From: Alphaproteobacteria bacterium
GTDB taxonomy: Bacteria > Pseudomonadota > Alphaproteobacteria > Micropepsales > Micropepsaceae
Length of the DNA stretch: 64,000 nucleotides
Assembly (NCBI GenBank): GCA_947475445.1
Contig: CANJLC010000001.1
Coordinates: 1-64,000, forward strand
Direction of reading: 5' to 3'
Shown here: positions 25,177-51,251 of the stretch, piece after piece
Position numbering within the stretch: position 1 is the first letter of the stretch
Layout of the letters: each line of letters begins with the position of its first letter
Notes under the pieces: generated by a model
What the model was told of the DNA's origin: nothing
The model's database searches: none
The model's input: only the letters and a program-made list of their open reading frames with translations
Position numbers and translations under genes: made by a program

Positions 25177-26460
25177 ATGTCCCAAACCGCACCCGCGACC
25201 CCGTCTTCGACCAGGGTTTTTGCCGCCTTCGAGTGGATGATTGCCCTGCGCTATCTGCGGGCCAAGCGGCGGGAAAGCTTTGTCTCGGTGATTTCGGGCT
25301 TTTCGCTGGTGGGCATCGCCCTGGGCGTGGCGACCCTGATTATCGTCATGTCGGTGATGGGCGGTTTCCGCAAGGAATTCCTCGCCTCCATCCTGGGCTT
25401 CAACGGCCATGTCACCGTCGCCGCCGCAGCCGGCCCGCTGCCCAATTACGACGCCATGGAAGCGCGGCTGAAAGCCGTGCCCGGCATCACCCGCGCTGCC
25501 CCCATCGTGGACGGCCAGGTGATGGCCACCCAGAATGGCGCCAACAGCGGCGTGCTGGTGCGCGGCATGCGCGAGGCCGACCTCGCCAGCCTGACCTCGG
25601 TCGCCCATAGCCTTGCGCCCGGCGTGCTGGCCGCTTTCAGCGGGGAAGACACCGTGATTATCGGCGATGGCCTGGCCCGCAAGCTTGGCATCACGCGCGG
25701 CGGCTCCATCACGCTGATCGCGCCCAAGGGAGCCGTCACGCCCTTCGGCACCACGCCGCGCATCAAGACCTACCTGGTGGCGGGCACCTTCAAGATCGGC
25801 AACAGCGCCTATGACGGCGCCTATGTCTTTATGCCTTTGGAAGAAGCGCAGCTCTTCTTTGACACTGGCGAAGGCGTCACCGGCATCGAATTGATGGTGG
25901 CAAAGCCCGACGATGATCTCGCCATGCTGCCGGACATCGCCAAGGCCGCCGGTCCCGGCGTGCGGCTGGTCCCGTGGCAGGACGTCAACACCGCTTTCTT
26001 CGAGGCCATCCAGGTCGAAAGCAATGTGATGTTCCTGATCCTCACTTTGATCATTCTCGTGGCGGCCCTGAACATCGTCTCGGGCCTGATCATGCTGGTG
26101 AAGGACAAGTCCGCCGATATCGCCATCCTGCGCACCATGGGCGCCACGCGCGGCGCCGTCATGCGGGTATTCCTGATCGCCGGCATGAGCATTGGCGTCA
26201 CCGGCACCCTGCTGGGCTTTGTCCTGGGCGTGCTGTTCTGCTGGAATATTGAAAGCATCCGCCAGGGCCTGCAAAACCTGACCGGCACGCCTCTGTTCGA
26301 TCCCACCATCTATTTCCTGTCCAAGATTCCCGCCGAGCTGGATGTCTGGCAGGTGACCTCCGTGGTGGTCATGACGCTTGTGCTGACATTCCTGGCCACG
26401 CTCTATCCCAGCTGGCGCGCCGCAAGGCTCGATCCCGTCGAGGCCCTGCGTTATGGCTGA
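25177..26460 (+). CDS. lolC: Lipoprotein-releasing ABC transporter permease LolC/E
   Basis: A 427-residue inner-membrane subunit of the Lol system, which extracts outer-membrane lipoproteins and hands them to LolA. The layout is one N-terminal membrane segment (about 40-65, [19 protein letters not shown]), a long periplasmic domain and three C-terminal membrane segments (about 285-415). The alphaproteobacterial single-permease type (LolF-like homodimer) is likely, since only one permease gene lies beside lolD. The ATG follows a 105-bp divergent gap with proS. Confidence 0.93.
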
Positions 26461-27151
26461 TATACTGCGCCTCGATAATATCACCCGCCGCTTCAAGGAA
26501 GGTGAGGGCCAGCTGGAAGTGTTCAGCGGCCTCAACATGACGCTTGCCCCGGGCGAGATCGTGGCCTTGGTCGGCCCCTCCGGTGTGGGCAAATCCTCGC
26601 TGCTGCATATCGCGGGACTGCTGGAAGCGCCCACCAGCGGCGAGATCCATATCAATGGCCGCGCAGTCTCGGGCTTGCCCGAGCATGAGCGCACCCGCAT
26701 CCGCCGCGACATGATCGGCTTTGTCTACCAGGCGCATCACTTGCTGCCGGAATTCGACGCACTGGAAAATGTCATCCTGCCCCAGATGATCGCGGGCAAA
26801 TCCCGCGCCGACGCGGCGGTGGAAGCGACACGCCTGCTGGGCAGCCTGGGCCTGGCGCAACGCCTCAGCCATCGTCCCGCGCAACTGTCGGGCGGCGAGC
26901 AGCAGCGCGTCGCCATTGCCCGCGCCCTGGCCAACAAGCCCCGCATCCTCCTGGCGGATGAGCCCACCGGCAATCTTGATCCCAAAACCTCCGGCGGGGT
27001 GTTCGACGCCCTGATCGCTTTAGTGCGGGCGGAAGGGCTGGCGGCCCTGATCGCCACCCACAATTTCGACCTCGCCGCCCGCATGGACCGCGCCCTGCTG
27101 CTGCACCAGGGCAAGCTGATTGCCGGTGCCGACCTGCCCAAGGCGGGGTAG
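26453..27151 (+). CDS. lolD: Lipoprotein-releasing ABC transporter ATP-binding protein
   Basis: A 232-residue ATPase of the Lol complex. Walker [10 protein letters not shown] is at about 41-49, the signature LSGGEQQ at about 145-151, Walker B ILLADE at about 165-170, and the H-loop ATHN near 200. It overlaps lolC by eight bases, so the two are co-translated. Confidence 0.95.
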
Positions 27152-27157
27152 GGCGAA

Positions 27158-27186
27158 ACCAAACAGCCGCTAAGCGGTTGTTTGGT
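27158..27186 (+). terminator. Hairpin after lolD (possible terminator)
   Basis: ACCAAACAGCCGC pairs with GCGGTTGTTTGGT (one G-U pair) around a TAA loop, seven bases after the lolD stop. It lacks a T-run, so termination would be weak or need Rho. A 3'-stabilising hairpin is an alternative. Confidence 0.45.
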
Positions 27187-27258
27187 CATGAGTTATCCAC
27201 AGCCCCGGTTCGACAGGCGCCCTGCCGCCCAAAAGGCGGTTTCGATCACCTTTTGTTC

Positions 27259-27287
27259 TTGCCTTCCAGATAGAACGGAACTAGAAC
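27259..27287 (+). promoter_or_regulatory. Promoter with overlapping LexA (SOS) box for the 33-residue microprotein
   Basis: GAAC (27273-27276) and GAAC (27284-27287) are seven bases apart, the inverse of the alphaproteobacterial SOS box GTTC-N7-GTTC. A sigma-70-type promoter fits over it: TTGCCT (27259-27264), 17 bases, TAGAAC (27282-27287), so the downstream half-site is part of the -10. The lexA promoter in this window has the same geometry, 17-base spacing and TAGAAC -10. LexA binding would block polymerase. Confidence 0.8.
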
Positions 27288-27316
27288 AAATCCCATCAAA
27301 GAGGGAGATCGCGGTC

Positions 27317-27418
27317 ATGTGGATCAAGGATGCAGCAGCAGGCGCCGGCCTTATCATTTTCATGGTCTCGTCCTTCGTCCTGGCCAGCGGCGCTCACACC
27401 GTCCTCCAGGCCATCTGA
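27317..27418 (+). CDS. sidA: SOS-induced small membrane protein, probable SidA-type cell division inhibitor
   Basis: A 33-residue protein beginning MWIKDAAAGAG, with one membrane span (about 9-28) and a short C-terminal tail. A GAGGGAGAT ribosome-binding site precedes the ATG. It lies 29 bases after a LexA box and just before dnaE. In Caulobacter the SOS-induced SidA is a 29-residue single-span inner-membrane protein that blocks division through FtsW. From memory, unverified, it also lies beside dnaE. Size, topology, SOS control and location all fit. The sequence relation has not been tested, so the function is inferred. An in-frame upstream ATG exists, but its reading would run across the promoter. 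Confidence 0.65.
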   Translation: MWIKDAAAGAGLIIFMVSSFVLASGAHTVLQAI

Positions 27419-27477
27419 CTTGTGGATAGGCGGTCCAGGCAGGGCCGCACGCGCCCGGGCTTAGGCGATACTTCGTC

Positions 27478-30400
27478 ATGGCTGAGACTCAAAAACCGGC
27501 GACGTTCATCCACCTGCGGGTGAAAAGCGCCTATTCGCTGCTGGAAGGCGCCGTGCGCCCCGGCGAGCTGGCCGAGCTGGCGCGGGCCAACACTATGCCC
27601 GCCGTGGCCGTCACCGACACCAACAACATGTTCGGGATCTACGAGATCACCGAAAAACTCACCCAGCGCTCCAAGGAACTCAAAAGCGGCCAGAAGCTGC
27701 CGCTCAGTCCCATCCAGCCCATCATCGGCACCTTGCTGTCGGTGGAGCTGGGTCCGGCCTCCACCGCGCCCGGCAGCAAGAAGAAGCCGCCGCATCTGCC
27801 GCTGCTGGCGCAGAATGAAATTGGCTACCGCAATCTCACCAAGCTGCTCAGCGCCGCCTATCTCCAGGTGGAACCCGGCGACTGGCCGCATGTCACGGGT
27901 GAGATGCTGGCCAGGCACAGCGAAGGCCTGATCTGCCTCACCGGCGGTCCCGGCGGTCCCATCAATGCCGCGCTGCTGGACGGCCAGCCCGAACACGCCG
28001 CCGTCCTGCTGGACAAATTGTCGGTCCTGTTCGGCGACCGGCTCTATGTTGAATTGCAGCGTCATGGCTTGCCCGAGGAACGCGCCGTCGAGCCTGGCCT
28101 GCTCGACCTGGCCTATTCAAAAGACATTCCCATCGTCGCCACCAATGACGTGCATTTCGGCGGCGCCGACATGTATGAGGCCCATGATGCGCTGCTCTGC
28201 ATTGCCGATGGCGCCTTCGTCTCCCAGGATGACCGCCGCCGCCTGACCCGCGAGCATCGCTTCAAGTCGCCGGCGGAAATGGCGGCCCAGTTTGCCGACC
28301 TGCCCGAGGCGCTGGAAAACACCATCGAGATCGCCCGCCGCTGCGCCTTCATGCCCAAGAAGCGCTCGCCCATTTTGCCGGTCTTTGTGCCCGAGTCCGG
28401 CCGCACCCCGGAAGAAGAACTGAAAGTTCAGGCTGTCGAAGGCCTGGAGCGCCGGCTCGAAGGCCACACGCTTTCCGCGGAGCGCAAGGTCTATGACGAA
28501 CGCCTGGCCTATGAGCTGGGCATCATCAACCGCATGGGCTTTCCCGGCTACTTCCTGATCGTGTCCGATTTCATGAAATGGACGCGCGGGCAGGGCATCC
28601 CCGTCGGCGTGCGCGGCTCCGGCGCCTCCTCGCTGGTGGCCTGGGCGCTCTACATCACCAACCTTGATCCCCTCCAGTTCGACCTGTTCTTCGAGCGTTT
28701 CCTCAATCCCGAACGTATCTCGATGCCGGACTTCGATATCGATTTCTGCCAGGAGCGGCGCGACGAAGTCATTCGCTATGTCCGCGACAAGTACGGCGCC
28801 GACAAGGTCGCCAACATCATCGCGCTGGGTTCGCTGCAGGCCCGCGCCGCCGTGCGCGACGCCGGCCGCGTGCTGCAGATGCCGCTGGGCCTGGTGGATC
28901 GCATCGCCAAGCTGATCCCCAATCCGCCAGGCAAGCCCGTGACGCTGCAACAGGCGATTGAAAGCGAACCGCGCCTGCAACAGATCGCCGAGCAGGAACC
29001 CATCGCCAAGCGCCTGTTCGAAATCACCTCCAAGATTGAAGGCCTGTACCGCCACGCCTCCACCCATCCGGCAGGTGTGGTGATTGGCGACCGGCCGCTG
29101 GATGAAATCCTGCCGCTTTACCGCGATCCGCGCGCCGACATGCAGGTCACGCAGTTCGACTATGAGGATGCGGAAAAGGCCGGGCTGGTAAAGTTCGACT
29201 TTCTCGGTCTCAAGACCCTGACGGTGATTTCCAAGGCGCAGGACCTCTTGCGCGCGCGCGGCATCGTCATCGACACACAGACCATAGCCTTCACCGACAG
29301 CGCCGCCTTCGAAATGCTGTCGCGCGGCGACAGCGTCGGCGTCTTCCAGCTGGAAGGCTCGGGCATGCGCGACCTGCTGCGCAAGATGAAGCCCGACCAC
29401 ATCAACGATCTTGTCGCGCTTGTCGCCCTTTACCGCCCGGGCCCGATGGAAGCCATTCCGCGCTACATCGCCTGCAAGAACGGCAAGGAAGCTCCCGAAT
29501 ATCTGCATCCCCTTCTGGAACCGATCCTGAAGGAAACCTATGGCGTCATGACATATCAGGACGATGTCATGCGCATCGCCCGCGAACTGGGCGGCTACAC
29601 CATGGGCGAGGCCGACCTGCTGCGCCGCGCCATGGGCAAGAAGATCGCGTCGGAAATGATTCCGCACCGCGAGAAATTCATGAAGGGCGCGGGTGAGCGC
29701 GGCATCATCCCGTCCATCGCCGAACAGATTTTCGAACAGGCCGAAAAATTCGCCGGCTATGGCTTCAACAAGGGCCATGCCGCCGCCTATGCCCAGGTCG
29801 CCTACCAGACCGCCTTCCTCAAGGCGAATTATCCGGTCGAATTCCTCGCCGCCTCCATGACGCTGGATATCGGCAACACTGACCGCCTCAACATCTTCCG
29901 CCAGGAAGCCGCACGGCTTGGCGTCAAGCTCTTGGCGCCCGACATCAACCGCTCGCAATCGGTGTTCTCCTGCGATGCCGATGCCGGCGAAGTCTTTTAC
30001 GCGCTGGCCGCCGTCAAGGGTGTGGGCAAGCAGGCGATGGACCATGTGGTGGAAATCCGCACCAAGGACGGCCCGTTCAAGAGCATCAGCGATTTCGCCC
30101 GCCGGGTCGATCCCCGGCAGGTCAACAAGCGTGCCTTTGAAAATCTGGTGCGGGCAGGGGCCTTCGACAGTCTCAACAAGAACCGCCGCCAGCTGGTGGA
30201 AAATTCCGACTGCATCCTGGGCGGCGCCCAGGCGGCGGCGCGCGAACGCGAAAGCGGCCAGGCCAACATGTTCGGTGGCAGCGCGGTTGAGGAATTGCGC
30301 CTCAGCAATATTCCCGACTGGCCGGCGCATGAAAGGCTGGCGGAGGAATTCGCCGCCATGGGTTTCTACCTCTCCGGCCACCCGCTCGATGCCTATGGTC

Positions 30401-30939
30401 CCGCCCTCAAGCGGCTGGGCGCCACCACCTATGCCAGCCTGACAGAAGACCGCCGTGCCGGGTTCAAGGCGCGGCTGGCCGGCACCATGATCAAGAAGTC
30501 GGAACGGCGCGGCCGCAACGACCAGATGTACGCCTTTGTTTCCTTCTCCGATCCCACCGGCATGTATGAAGTGATGCTGTTTCCCGAAGTGCTGGCCACC
30601 AGCCGCGCCTTGCTGGAGTCCGGCAAATCGCTGCTGATCACGGCCAGCGCGGACTGGGACGGCGATGAACTCAAGCTTCGCGCCGCCTCGATCGCCGACC
30701 TGGACCAGGCCGCCGCCAATGCCGGCGAAGGCATGGTGGTGAGGCTGGACAGCGTGGCGCCGCTCGGCGCCGTGGCGGCGCAGCTATCCGGTGCGGGCAA
30801 GGGGCTGGTGAGTTTCATCGTCCCGGGCGGCCCGGGCGAGGAAGTCGAGATCGCCCTCAGCAAACGCCATGCGGTAACCGCATCGCTGCGCAACGTGATC
30901 GCGGCTATTCCCGGCGTGGTATCGGTCGAGGCTGTTTAG
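27478..30939 (+). CDS. dnaE: DNA polymerase III subunit alpha
   Basis: A 1153-residue replicative polymerase. An N-terminal PHP domain starts HLRVKSAYSLLEGAV. The polymerase core contains GVRGSGASSLVAW and the metal-binding aspartates in PDFDIDF (D418, D420), and a tandem HhH and OB-fold region lies near the C-terminus. The full-length layout and the place after lolD indicate the essential DnaE1, not the mutagenic DnaE2. No terminator follows; the next gene, rpsB, has its own promoter. Confidence 0.96.
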   Translation: MAETQKPATFIHLRVKSAYSLLEGAVRPGELAELARANTMPAVAVTDTNNMFGIYEITEKLTQRSKELKSGQKLPLSPIQPIIGTLLSVELGPASTAPGSKKKPPHLPLLAQNEIGYRNLTKLLSAAYLQVEPGDWPHVTGEMLARHSEGLICLTGGPGGPINAALLDGQPEHAAVLLDKLSVLFGDRLYVELQRHGLPEERAVEPGLLDLAYSKDIPIVATNDVHFGGADMYEAHDALLCIADGAFVSQDDRRRLTREHRFKSPAEMAAQFADLPEALENTIEIARRCAFMPKKRSPILPVFVPESGRTPEEELKVQAVEGLERRLEGHTLSAERKVYDERLAYELGIINRMGFPGYFLIVSDFMKWTRGQGIPVGVRGSGASSLVAWALYITNLDPLQFDLFFERFLNPERISMPDFDIDFCQERRDEVIRYVRDKYGADKVANIIALGSLQARAAVRDAGRVLQMPLGLVDRIAKLIPNPPGKPVTLQQAIESEPRLQQIAEQEPIAKRLFEITSKIEGLYRHASTHPAGVVIGDRPLDEILPLYRDPRADMQVTQFDYEDAEKAGLVKFDFLGLKTLTVISKAQDLLRARGIVIDTQTIAFTDSAAFEMLSRGDSVGVFQLEGSGMRDLLRKMKPDHINDLVALVALYRPGPMEAIPRYIACKNGKEAPEYLHPLLEPILKETYGVMTYQDDVMRIARELGGYTMGEADLLRRAMGKKIASEMIPHREKFMKGAGERGIIPSIAEQIFEQAEKFAGYGFNKGHAAAYAQVAYQTAFLKANYPVEFLAASMTLDIGNTDRLNIFRQEAARLGVKLLAPDINRSQSVFSCDADAGEVFYALAAVKGVGKQAMDHVVEIRTKDGPFKSISDFARRVDPRQVNKRAFENLVRAGAFDSLNKNRRQLVENSDCILGGAQAAARERESGQANMFGGSAVEELRLSNIPDWPAHERLAEEFAAMGFYLSGHPLDAYGPALKRLGATTYASLTEDRRAGFKARLAGTMIKKSERRGRNDQMYAFVSFSDPTGMYEVMLFPEVLATSRALLESGKSLLITASADWDGDELKLRAASIADLDQAAANAGEGMVVRLDSVAPLGAVAAQLSGAGKGLVSFIVPGGPGEEVEIALSKRHAVTASLRNVIAAIPGVVSVEAV

Positions 30940-48316: not shown

Positions 48317-50416
48317 ATGGCGATAGGCCTTCAGACCCTGTTGCGGCGTGATGCGGCATCCGGCCTTTCAGGACCAGGTTGGCCGTCATTCTGGACCCGT
48401 TTTTCGAAGCCTGCCCAGGCCGAGCGGCACCGCTGGCCGCTCTGGCTGGCTGTCATGCTGGGAACCGGGTCGGCGCTCTATTTCGCCCTTCCGCAAGAAC
48501 CTTGCCTGGCCACCGGCCTTGGTGCTTTGCTTCTGGCCTTCCTATCCGGGCTGGCTTCCGCCCTTGGCGGGCATGGCCGCATGGCGCTGGCCTTGCTGGC
48601 GGCGCTGGCGCTGGGTTTTGGCGCCGCCAAGCTGCGCGAAGTACAGGTGGCGGCTCCCGTCTTGCCCCAGGAACTCACCGCCCATTTTTCCGGCCGCGTG
48701 TTGTCAGTGGACCCTGCGGCCAGGGGCGTGCGGCTTGTGCTGGGTGACCTGCGATCCGGAGCATTCGCGGACGGGGTGCCGCAGCGCGCGCGCATTGCGG
48801 TGCGCGGCGCGGGCGCGGATTTCCATCCCGGCCAGGGCCTCAGCCTGACGGCCCGCCTGATGCCACCGCCCGGCCCCAGCACGATTGGCGACGGCGATTT
48901 CGGGCGGGGCGCATTTTTCCAAGGGGTCGGTGCGGTGGGATTTTCCTTTGGCGCACCCATTCCCGCGCCGCTGGCTGCCGATCCTGGCTGGGGTGATCGC
49001 CTCGCCGATTTCACGGAAAATCTTCGCGAGAGCATGACGGCACGCATCCAGCGGCAATTGCCGGGCGGCGAGGGTGCCATCGCCAGCGCCCTCATCACCG
49101 GCCAGCGCGGCGGCATCGATGATGCCGACGAAGCTGCGCTGCGCGATGCTGGTCTGGCCCACATGCTTTCCATCTCCGGCCTGCACATGGCGCTGGTGCG
49201 GTTTGGCCTGTTCTGGCTGGTGCGCGCAGTGCTGGTGGGTTTTCCGGTTCTGGCATTGAACCATCCCATCAAGAAATGGGCGGCGGTGGCAGCCTTGTTC
49301 AGCGCCGCATTCTATTTTGTGATCAGCGGGGCTTCGGCCTCGGCGGCGCGGGCCTTTGTCATGCTGGCGATGATGCTGGTGGCGATCCTGGCGGACCGGC
49401 CGGCGCTCTCGATGCGCAATCTCGCTTTGGCGGCCGCCATCCTGCTGCTGTGGCGGCCGGAATCCATCACCGATCCAGGCTTTCAAATGTCTTTCGCGGC
49501 CGTTGCCGGCCTGATCGCAATGGCCGAATGGGAGCAGAAGCGCCAACGCGCGTCGCCCCATGGCCTGGTCTATCGCTATCTGCGCGGCATCGTGCTGACC
49601 AGTCTCGTCGGCAGCCTCGCCACCATGCCCTTCGCCATTTTCTATTTCTCCCGCGCCACCCATTACGCGGTGCTGGGCAATCTGCTCGCCATGCCGGTGA
49701 TGGGCTTTTGGATCATGCCCATGGCGGCGGCTGGCGTGATCGCCATGCCGTTCGGGTTCGAAGCCCTGCCGCTCGAAGCGATGGGCAAGGGCATCGCGGC
49801 CATGATGCGCATGAGCCAGACTGTTTCCGGCCTGCCCGGTGCGGTGACGATCTTGCCCAGCTTTCCTGTTGCCACGCTGGTCCTGGTCACCTTGGGCGGC
49901 CTGTGGCTGACACTGTGGCGCGGCGACTGGCGCTGGTGGGGCGCTGTCCCCATGCTGGCGGGAATTTTCCTGGCGGCCACCACGCCAGGGCCGGACATGC
50001 TGGTGGCAAGCGATGCACGCACCATTGCCATCCGAAACGCCGACGGAGTGCTGGTTTTTCCCCACAAGGCCAAAGACAGTTTCGCGGCCTCGCGCTGGCT
50101 GGCACGGGAAGGCGATACGCGCAGCCCACGCGCTGCCATTGTTCCCGCCAAGTGCGATGCGCAAAGCTGTATCGCAATGGCGCCCGGTGGCGATCTGATC
50201 GCCATGCCTTTCCGCCCGGAAGCGCTGGCAGAGGACTGCGCCCGCGCTGATATCGTCATCAGCGCCGTGCCCGCCCAAAATTGCGCCGGCCCGAAGCTGT
50301 TTCTGGATTCAAGGCAAATTGCTGCCGGCGGCGGCTATGCCATCACAAACGGACAAGCGCGCAGCGTCAATGACTGGCGCGGCGCTCGTCCTTGGGTCGT
50401 CGCAAAAACTCAGTAG
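48317..50416 (+). CDS. comEC: ComEC/Rec2 family DNA-uptake channel protein
   Basis: A 699-residue polytopic membrane protein. An N-terminal DUF4131-like domain (about 35-210) precedes the competence domain with the motif [15 protein letters not shown]. About ten membrane segments follow. The last 120 residues are a soluble domain that lacks the HxHxDH motif of the metallo-beta-lactamase domain in classical ComEC, as is common in alphaproteobacteria. The ATG at 48317 was chosen because upstream in-frame starts lie inside gltX. The stop overlaps the convergent lexA end by seven bases. Confidence 0.88.
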
Positions 50417-51135
50417 CGGCGGATCAGGCCGACCAGCTTGCCCTGCACCTTGACGCGATCGGCACCATACAGGCGAGTCTCATAGGCCGGGTTGGCCGCT
50501 TCCAGGGCGATGGAATCGCCCCGGCGGCGCAGCCGCTTCAAGGTGGCTTCGGTATCATCCACCAGCGCCACCACGATCTCGCCGGTATTGGCGGTCGAGG
50601 CTTCCTGGATGATGACGGTGTCGCCGTCCAATATGCCGGCATTGATCATGGAATCCCCGGTCACTTCGAGGGCGTAATGATCGCCGCGCCCGATCATGCC
50701 GCTGGGCACGGGCACGTCATTGATGCGGTTCTGCAGCGCCTCGATGGGCGTGCCGGCCGCGATGCGTCCCACCAGCGGCACATTGACGGAATTCTCGCTG
50801 TCGCCCATCGCCTTGCGCGGGGTGGTGTGGCGCGGATCGGCGCTGCGGCCATGCCGGGCGGACGGCAAGATGCGCTGGCTCTGGCTGCGGGTGGCGGCCG
50901 GGCGCGCCGTCTCGGCCATATTGTCGGGCAGGCGGGTCACTTCCAGGGCGCGGGCGCGCTTTTCCATGCGGCGCAGGAAGCCGCGTTCTTCCAGGGCGGT
51001 GATCAGGCGGTGGATGCCGGATTTTGACTTCAGATCCAGCGCATCCTTCATCTCGTCAAAGGATGGTGGCACGCCGCTTTCGCGAATCCGCTCATGAATG
51101 AACATCAGCAATTCATATTGTTTGCGGGTCAGCAT
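50410..51135 (-). CDS. lexA: LexA SOS repressor
   Basis: A 241-residue repressor and self-cleaving protease. The winged helix-turn-helix is at 1-65 ([36 protein letters not shown]). The cleavage site A127-G128 (GRIAAGTP), the nucleophile S162 (GDSMINAG) and the lysine K200 are all present, so the protein should be cleavable on RecA activation. The linker (about 70-110) is long and basic, typical of alphaproteobacteria. The ATG at 51135 gives the family N-terminus. Its own SOS box lies about 90 bases upstream. Confidence 0.96.
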
Positions 51136-51222
51136 CGGCCATGTCCTTTTGCGCGGGGAACCCCGCATTTCCACCCGGTTTGCCCGCAAATCGGGGCGAA
51201 CAAAGCCGGTACATGGAGAATC

Positions 51223-51251
51223 GTTCTACTTTAGTTCTTTTGGGCCGTCAA
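51223..51251 (-). promoter_or_regulatory. lexA promoter with autoregulatory LexA box
   Basis: GTTC (51223-51226) and GTTC (51234-51237) are seven bases apart, the exact alphaproteobacterial SOS box. Read on the minus strand, TTGACG (51251-51246), 17 bases, TAGAAC (51228-51223) form a promoter whose -10 contains a box half-site. The arrangement is the same as at 27259-27287. Confidence 0.85.

Follow-up and report, generated by a model that had tools for sequence, protein, structure and literature searches.

SidA of Caulobacter crescentus (locus tag CCNA_02004; PMC10769358) is described as a LexA-controlled inner-membrane protein of 29 amino acids, which inhibits division through FtsW and acts on the FtsW/I/N complex (PMC4211646), and low-confidence models place it on TM7 of FtsW (PMC13396833). 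Caulobacter also has DidA, which is likewise a damage-induced single-span division inhibitor, but comprises 71 amino acids, is driven by DriD instead of LexA and binds FtsN (PMC4211646). YneA of Bacillus, SosA of Staphylococcus, ChiZ of Mycobacterium and DivS of Corynebacterium are damage-induced division inhibitors as well; YneA, SosA and ChiZ are described as small membrane proteins that act late, in the case of YneA on FtsW (PMC13396833). These four proteins belong to other phyla and, like DidA, were compared with the protein studied here by their descriptions.

TisB is a LexA-controlled short hydrophobic peptide whose helix core bears charged residues. TisB/DinQ-type systems are antisense-controlled, and they combine an antisense RNA with a long structured leader. 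DinQ of Escherichia coli is an SOS-regulated, single-span and LexA-controlled short hydrophobic peptide, which is described as acting on membrane-dependent activities (PMC3567139). In the portions of the literature available to us, we found no report of SidA outside the relatives of Caulobacter or of a rule that ties it to the dnaE locus; the original 2011 SidA paper lay outside the search and may say more. To our knowledge, SidA has so far been treated as a Caulobacter protein. The stretch of DNA analyzed here, referred to as the window, comprises 64,000 nucleotides in total and comes from a soil- or water-dwelling member of the Rhizomicrobium group.

The microprotein locus in the window

An unannotated ORF lies between dnaE and an upstream gene which, from its sequence, we take to be of the lolD type. 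It is translated into a product of 33 amino acids (MWIKDAAAGAGLIIFMVSSFVLASGAHTVLQAI), and the surrounding features are listed in Table 1. The first-pass annotation had described a perfect GAAC-N7-GAAC box that reaches with its second half into the -10 of a 17-bp-spaced promoter, with a ribosome-binding site and a single-span frame of 33 codons behind it, and all of these elements were recovered. The promoter was read in the sequence; a strict sigma-70 scan of 27150-27500 called none, the candidate -35 included, and the -35 of many relatives reads TTGACA or TTGACx. Terminator-like sites sought in the same interval were not found. A purine-rich stretch at the position of the ribosome-binding site is also visible in many relatives.

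Table 1. Positions in the window of the microprotein gene, its control elements and neighbours, and of the lexA box used for comparison
Feature	Position	Strand	Remarks
Gene for a presumed lolD-type ABC transporter ATPase, upstream	26453..27151	+	ORF list
Degenerate second operator-like site GATC-N7-GTTC	27244..27258	+	directly upstream of the -35
Candidate -35 TTGCCT	27259..27264	+	17 bp from TAGAAC
LexA-type box GAAC-N7-GAAC, GAACGGAACTAGAAC	27273..27287	+	perfect; second half overlaps the -10
Candidate -10 TAGAAC	27282-27287	+	read from sequence
Ribosome-binding site GAGGGAGAT	27301..27309	+	read from sequence
SidA-like 33-codon single-span microprotein ORF	27317..27418	+	ATG 27317, stop 27416-27418
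TGTGGATAG, possible DnaA-type box	27421..27429	+	between microprotein stop and dnaE
dnaE, encoding the alpha subunit of DNA polymerase III, downstream	27478..30939	+	TIGR00594, 1129.8 bits
LexA box of lexA (comparison), GAACTAAAGTAGAAC	51223..51237	-	sequence motif

AlphaFold2 predicts one helix for the microprotein, which spans residues 2-32 with a mean pLDDT of 95.5. With 33 residues and one predicted transmembrane helix, whose membrane insertion is suggested by hydropathy, the product falls into the size and topology class of SidA (about 29-33 amino acids). An alternative in-frame TTG at 27182 would yield a product of 78 amino acids, but aligned conservation begins at the ATG or at most two residues from it. 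No family match was obtained for the window protein in Pfam and NCBIfam, no match in PHROGs and the PDB, and none with the microprotein in a plasmid collection. Rfam returned for 27100-27600 a single match up to an E-value of 1, psRNA14 at 27154-27238, which was discarded because its score of 19.7 is far under the gathering score of 60.

The lexA promoter in the window (TTGACG-17-TAGAAC with box GAACTAAAGTAGAAC) has the same geometry as the microprotein promoter, in agreement with what had been claimed from the sequence alone. The genome carries two lexA genes, one in the window (50410-51189, minus strand) and one outside it (L235, G000:C21), which are 84.5% identical over 852 aligned bases and are both preceded by the identical box GAACTAAAGTAGAAC. 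The GAAC-N7-GAAC motif also precedes recA and ssb of this genome, as it does both lexA genes, and occurs beside a uvrD-like gene; recA, ssb and the second lexA were named by recognition of their translations. Of the 37 boxes in the genome, 35 lie outside the window, and 17 stretches outside it were read for context. Most of the 17 further boxes are located ahead of genes without known SOS control or inside ORFs.

By its number alone, the box carries no weight. The window contains 2 perfect boxes versus 1.10 expected, a count reached by 28 of 100 shuffles, and the genome of 2.17 Mb contains 37 versus 36 for the reversed pattern. Both counts are at chance level, and we therefore do not regard a perfect box as significant by itself. 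Its significance beyond chance follows instead from conservation, since a perfect box precedes the microprotein ORF in all 30 loci of the genus that were examined. As regards the LexA repression and SOS induction that characterize SidA, the finding here is a predicted operator kept in 30/30 genus loci. Measured from the first base of the box, the start codon follows after 44 nt in 16 of these loci, with a range of 41-70 nt. The upstream operator-like site reads G[AG]TC-N7-GTTC in 25/30 loci and is a perfect GTTC-N7-GTTC in 4/30, and TTTTGTTCTTG is found in 25/30.

Conservation and selection in Rhizomicrobium

A search with the 33 residues gave matches in 35 of 61 genomes, namely 35/37 of the genus and 0/24 others. 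Including two further genomes, the microprotein is present in 37/39 Rhizomicrobium genomes, and the remaining two, whose completeness is 67-74%, also miss the N-terminus of dnaE. Residues W2 and D5 are invariant in 30/30 genus sequences. In the microprotein frame, pN is smaller than pS in 431 of 435 pairs, with a median pN/pS of 0.44, while the other two forward frames have medians of 1.11 and 1.51 and the bias is gone. The substitution pattern indicates purifying selection in this frame only, and the earlier expectation that the frame is conserved in relatives was borne out.

The first aligned residue of dnaE follows the microprotein stop after 59-127 nt in 26/30 genus loci, and dnaE starts more than 500 nt further on in the remaining four (L016, L022, L024, L028). 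For many of the loci L031-L088, tblastn detected a lolD-type gene ahead of the microprotein. In L016, L022, L028 and L082, the microprotein and dnaE are separated by either one ORF or two, with lengths of about 135-173 amino acids.

SidA and its probable relatives at the dnaE locus

The LpxI protein of the window matches PDB entry 4ggm, and the sequence of this entry was used to select Caulobacteraceae genomes, two of which encode it with 100% and 99% identity. Of the 20 regions retrieved, dnaE was found in 19. All 19 contain a single-span ORF of 29-31 amino acids before dnaE, two of these ORFs having been read by eye, and in 17/19 the ORF is preceded by a perfect box. The Caulobacter ORF of 29 residues from genome G492 matches the curated SidA model NF033228 with 72.4 bits (cut-off 35) over all 29 positions, and the model match in this genome falls within the fetched region upstream of dnaE. 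Thus, SidA resides at the locus that is occupied by the microprotein ORF in the window. The position of SidA upstream of dnaE was observed here in Caulobacter, and we found no published criterion of this kind.

Across 50 genomes, NF033228 passed its cut-off in 10/16 Caulobacteraceae and 0/34 others; one of the 34 matched weakly and away from dnaE. The model matched none of five Rhizomicrobium genomes, and the window protein gave no match with it, versus the 72.4 bits of the Caulobacter control, which places the window protein outside the curated SidA family as defined by sequence. In one genome of the Caulobacter group, a second, weaker SidA-model match of 28.5 bits, below the cut-off, was observed at G439:C3:315102-315185, on a different contig from the first.

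A profile of the Rhizomicrobium microproteins matched 26 of 385 genomes of the class at E <= 0.05. Five of these belong to the genus, and three belong to one other family (f121), in which a related ORF of 32 residues with a perfect box is located between lolD and dnaE. For the remaining 18 matches, the stretch retrieved contained no dnaE, and we regarded them as noise. In addition, 120 regions upstream of dnaE from genomes of further families were inspected, which are the best-scoring among the matches listed of 320 genomes with a dnaE match. A box followed by a single-span hydrophobic ORF before dnaE was found in 15/120 of these regions in the sense direction versus 0/120 in antisense, a figure that is no estimate of prevalence, as several regions come from the same family and three are shortened by contig ends. 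With one mismatch allowed, the counts among the same regions were 18/120 and 1/120. The spacing and hydropathy thresholds of this rule were fixed after the first 40 of the 120 regions had been inspected, and the 15 do not include L095 and L195, where box and ORF are present outside the spacing rule.

The boxed ORFs were found without reference to SidA similarity. In an unselected test, in which the SidA profile of Caulobacteraceae was run on all 2305 small ORFs of the 120 regions, its top six hits (one ORF per region) were all LexA-boxed ORFs, with E-values of 8e-4, 0.002 and 0.016, followed by 0.07-0.25. On the same ORFs, the genus profile ranked boxed ORFs first and second, at E-values of 0.39 and 1.2. 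LexA-boxed microproteins are thus present at this locus in some other families. Some of the boxed ORFs look unlike, for example those of family f41, L123, L154 and L175. GTTC-type boxes near dnaE in L103, L165, L184, L187, L189, L216 and L223 are followed by no such ORF. Two f126 genomes (L263, L265) encode a microprotein of the W(M/L)KDTLAL type before a kinase-like gene, presumably NtrY-like, with a one-mismatch box-like site, and carry dnaE on another contig.

Homology to SidA was assessed with three alignments: the Rhizomicrobium set (A1), 16 of the 19 Caulobacteraceae ORFs after removal of three near-duplicates (A2), and two f121 ORFs plus 11 from other families (A3). The members of A3 are mutually similar boxed ORFs chosen by eye; the unlike boxed ORFs L105, L123, L154, L175, L195, L209 and L220 and the one-mismatch ORF L108 were left out. 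The proposed direct alignment with Caulobacter SidA failed to detect similarity: hhalign gave 0.4-0.5% for the Rhizomicrobium family against SidA, 39/100 column permutations being as good, the SidA model rose above background in 0/30 genus sequences and the reverse search in 0/16 Caulobacteraceae sequences. For f121 against SidA, hhalign gave 0.4%. The N-termini differ as well, with WxKDAxAG in the window family versus the start xxxARESLALxSV in SidA.

A connection exists through intermediates. In the hhalign chain, A1 aligns with f121 at 95.6%, where only the position and the box of f121 are independent of the genus profile that found it, f121 with the remainder of A3 at 94.4%, and this remainder with SidA at 94.1%. 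A1 against A3 without f121 gave 40%, with 1/100 permutations as good. A bridge set from which f121 was left out and to which two f126 ORFs were added reached 66% with A1 over 17 columns and 94.8% with SidA over 27 columns, with 0/200 column permutations as good in either comparison. On single Rhizomicrobium sequences, the bridge HMM reached at most 10.2 bits, less than the 12.5 bits of the highest-scoring background segment, and a mixed profile (A5) matched 20/385 genomes of the class and 0/5 of the genus (the own genome and four others). The graded intermediates share a WxKD / LALxSV core. Judged from these alignments, the window protein is probably a remote homologue and positional counterpart of SidA; it is not assigned to the curated family, because the link exists only via intermediates and both the bridge HMM and A5 miss the genus sequences. 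The earlier proposal of a SidA-type, LexA-controlled protein is partly supported, namely by position, operator conservation and selection, but neither by the curated model nor by direct homology.

A probable division brake and its alternatives

SidA and the window protein have in common a LexA-type box, a tiny single-span product (29 versus 33 residues) and a location immediately upstream of dnaE. The best explanation, which we consider probable from the combined analysis, is a functional SOS gene that encodes a diverged, positional SidA homologue, most likely blocking division at FtsW/FtsI/FtsN. We infer LexA binding, damage induction, membrane insertion, an FtsW-complex target and a division block, which would operate as follows. 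LexA on the box over the -10 would keep the promoter shut, and upon DNA damage RecA would trigger LexA cleavage and thereby open it. The resulting 33-residue inner-membrane helix would, similar to SidA, hold the septal wall synthase complex FtsW/FtsI/FtsN inactive, and division would be delayed until repair is done.

An SOS-induced, membrane-depolarizing toxin of the TisB/DinQ type, which would lower the proton-motive force and cause dormancy without a divisome target, shares the size class, the single predicted helix and the LexA-type control. We nevertheless regard it as unlikely, because the short distance from box to start codon in the genus leaves little room for a long structured leader, Rfam gives nothing near a gathering score around the gene, the charged residues of TisB are missing from the helix core and Caulobacter has SidA at this locus. 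Convergence, i.e. an unrelated SOS-induced single-span protein with another target at the same locus, would fit with the lack of direct similarity to SidA, with the unlike boxed ORFs of some other families, and with the mutual unrelatedness of SOS division inhibitors from other groups (PMC4211646). Position and operator design are, however, common to Rhizomicrobium, f121, Caulobacteraceae and further families, and the intermediates are graded around a shared core, which makes convergence very unlikely. It is highly improbable that the ORF is just a dnaE leader whose translation or LexA promoter tunes dnaE after damage while the peptide is functionless: it does precede dnaE immediately and in the same orientation, at short distance in most genus loci and with no terminator-like site detected in 27150-27500, but the selection on amino acids, the four loci with dnaE more than 500 nt away and the two f126 genomes with a related ORF before another gene argue that the microprotein is more than that.

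If the reading as a diverged SidA is correct, the microprotein would be a candidate checkpoint protein for bacteria in which the search for SulA (Pfam PF03846) came up empty; the model matched the E. coli control but 0/37 genomes, of which 23 belong to the genus. Its relatives would offer naturally occurring variants with which to map the contact to FtsW, and they would be a case in which the position and operator of a microprotein are better conserved than its sequence. A SidA-type brake may occur more widely than the annotation indicates, and the locus rule of a LexA box plus a single-span ORF ahead of dnaE detects likely relatives in other families where a SidA sequence search is weak or silent. 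Whether a LexA-controlled, fast-evolving brake of this type is ancestral to a large part of the Alphaproteobacteria and has been kept at the dnaE locus, possibly in one SOS transcription unit that couples a division block to the replicative polymerase gene, and nearly always unannotated outside Caulobacteraceae, is in our view evenly balanced.

Just past the microprotein stop, TGTGGATAG is a possible DnaA-type site ahead of dnaE, and TGTGGA occurs within 45 nt of the stop in 29/30 genus loci. In L021, L023, L029, L030, L145, L249 and L250, the microprotein is preceded by two or three perfect LexA-type boxes, which are arranged in tandem or point in both directions.
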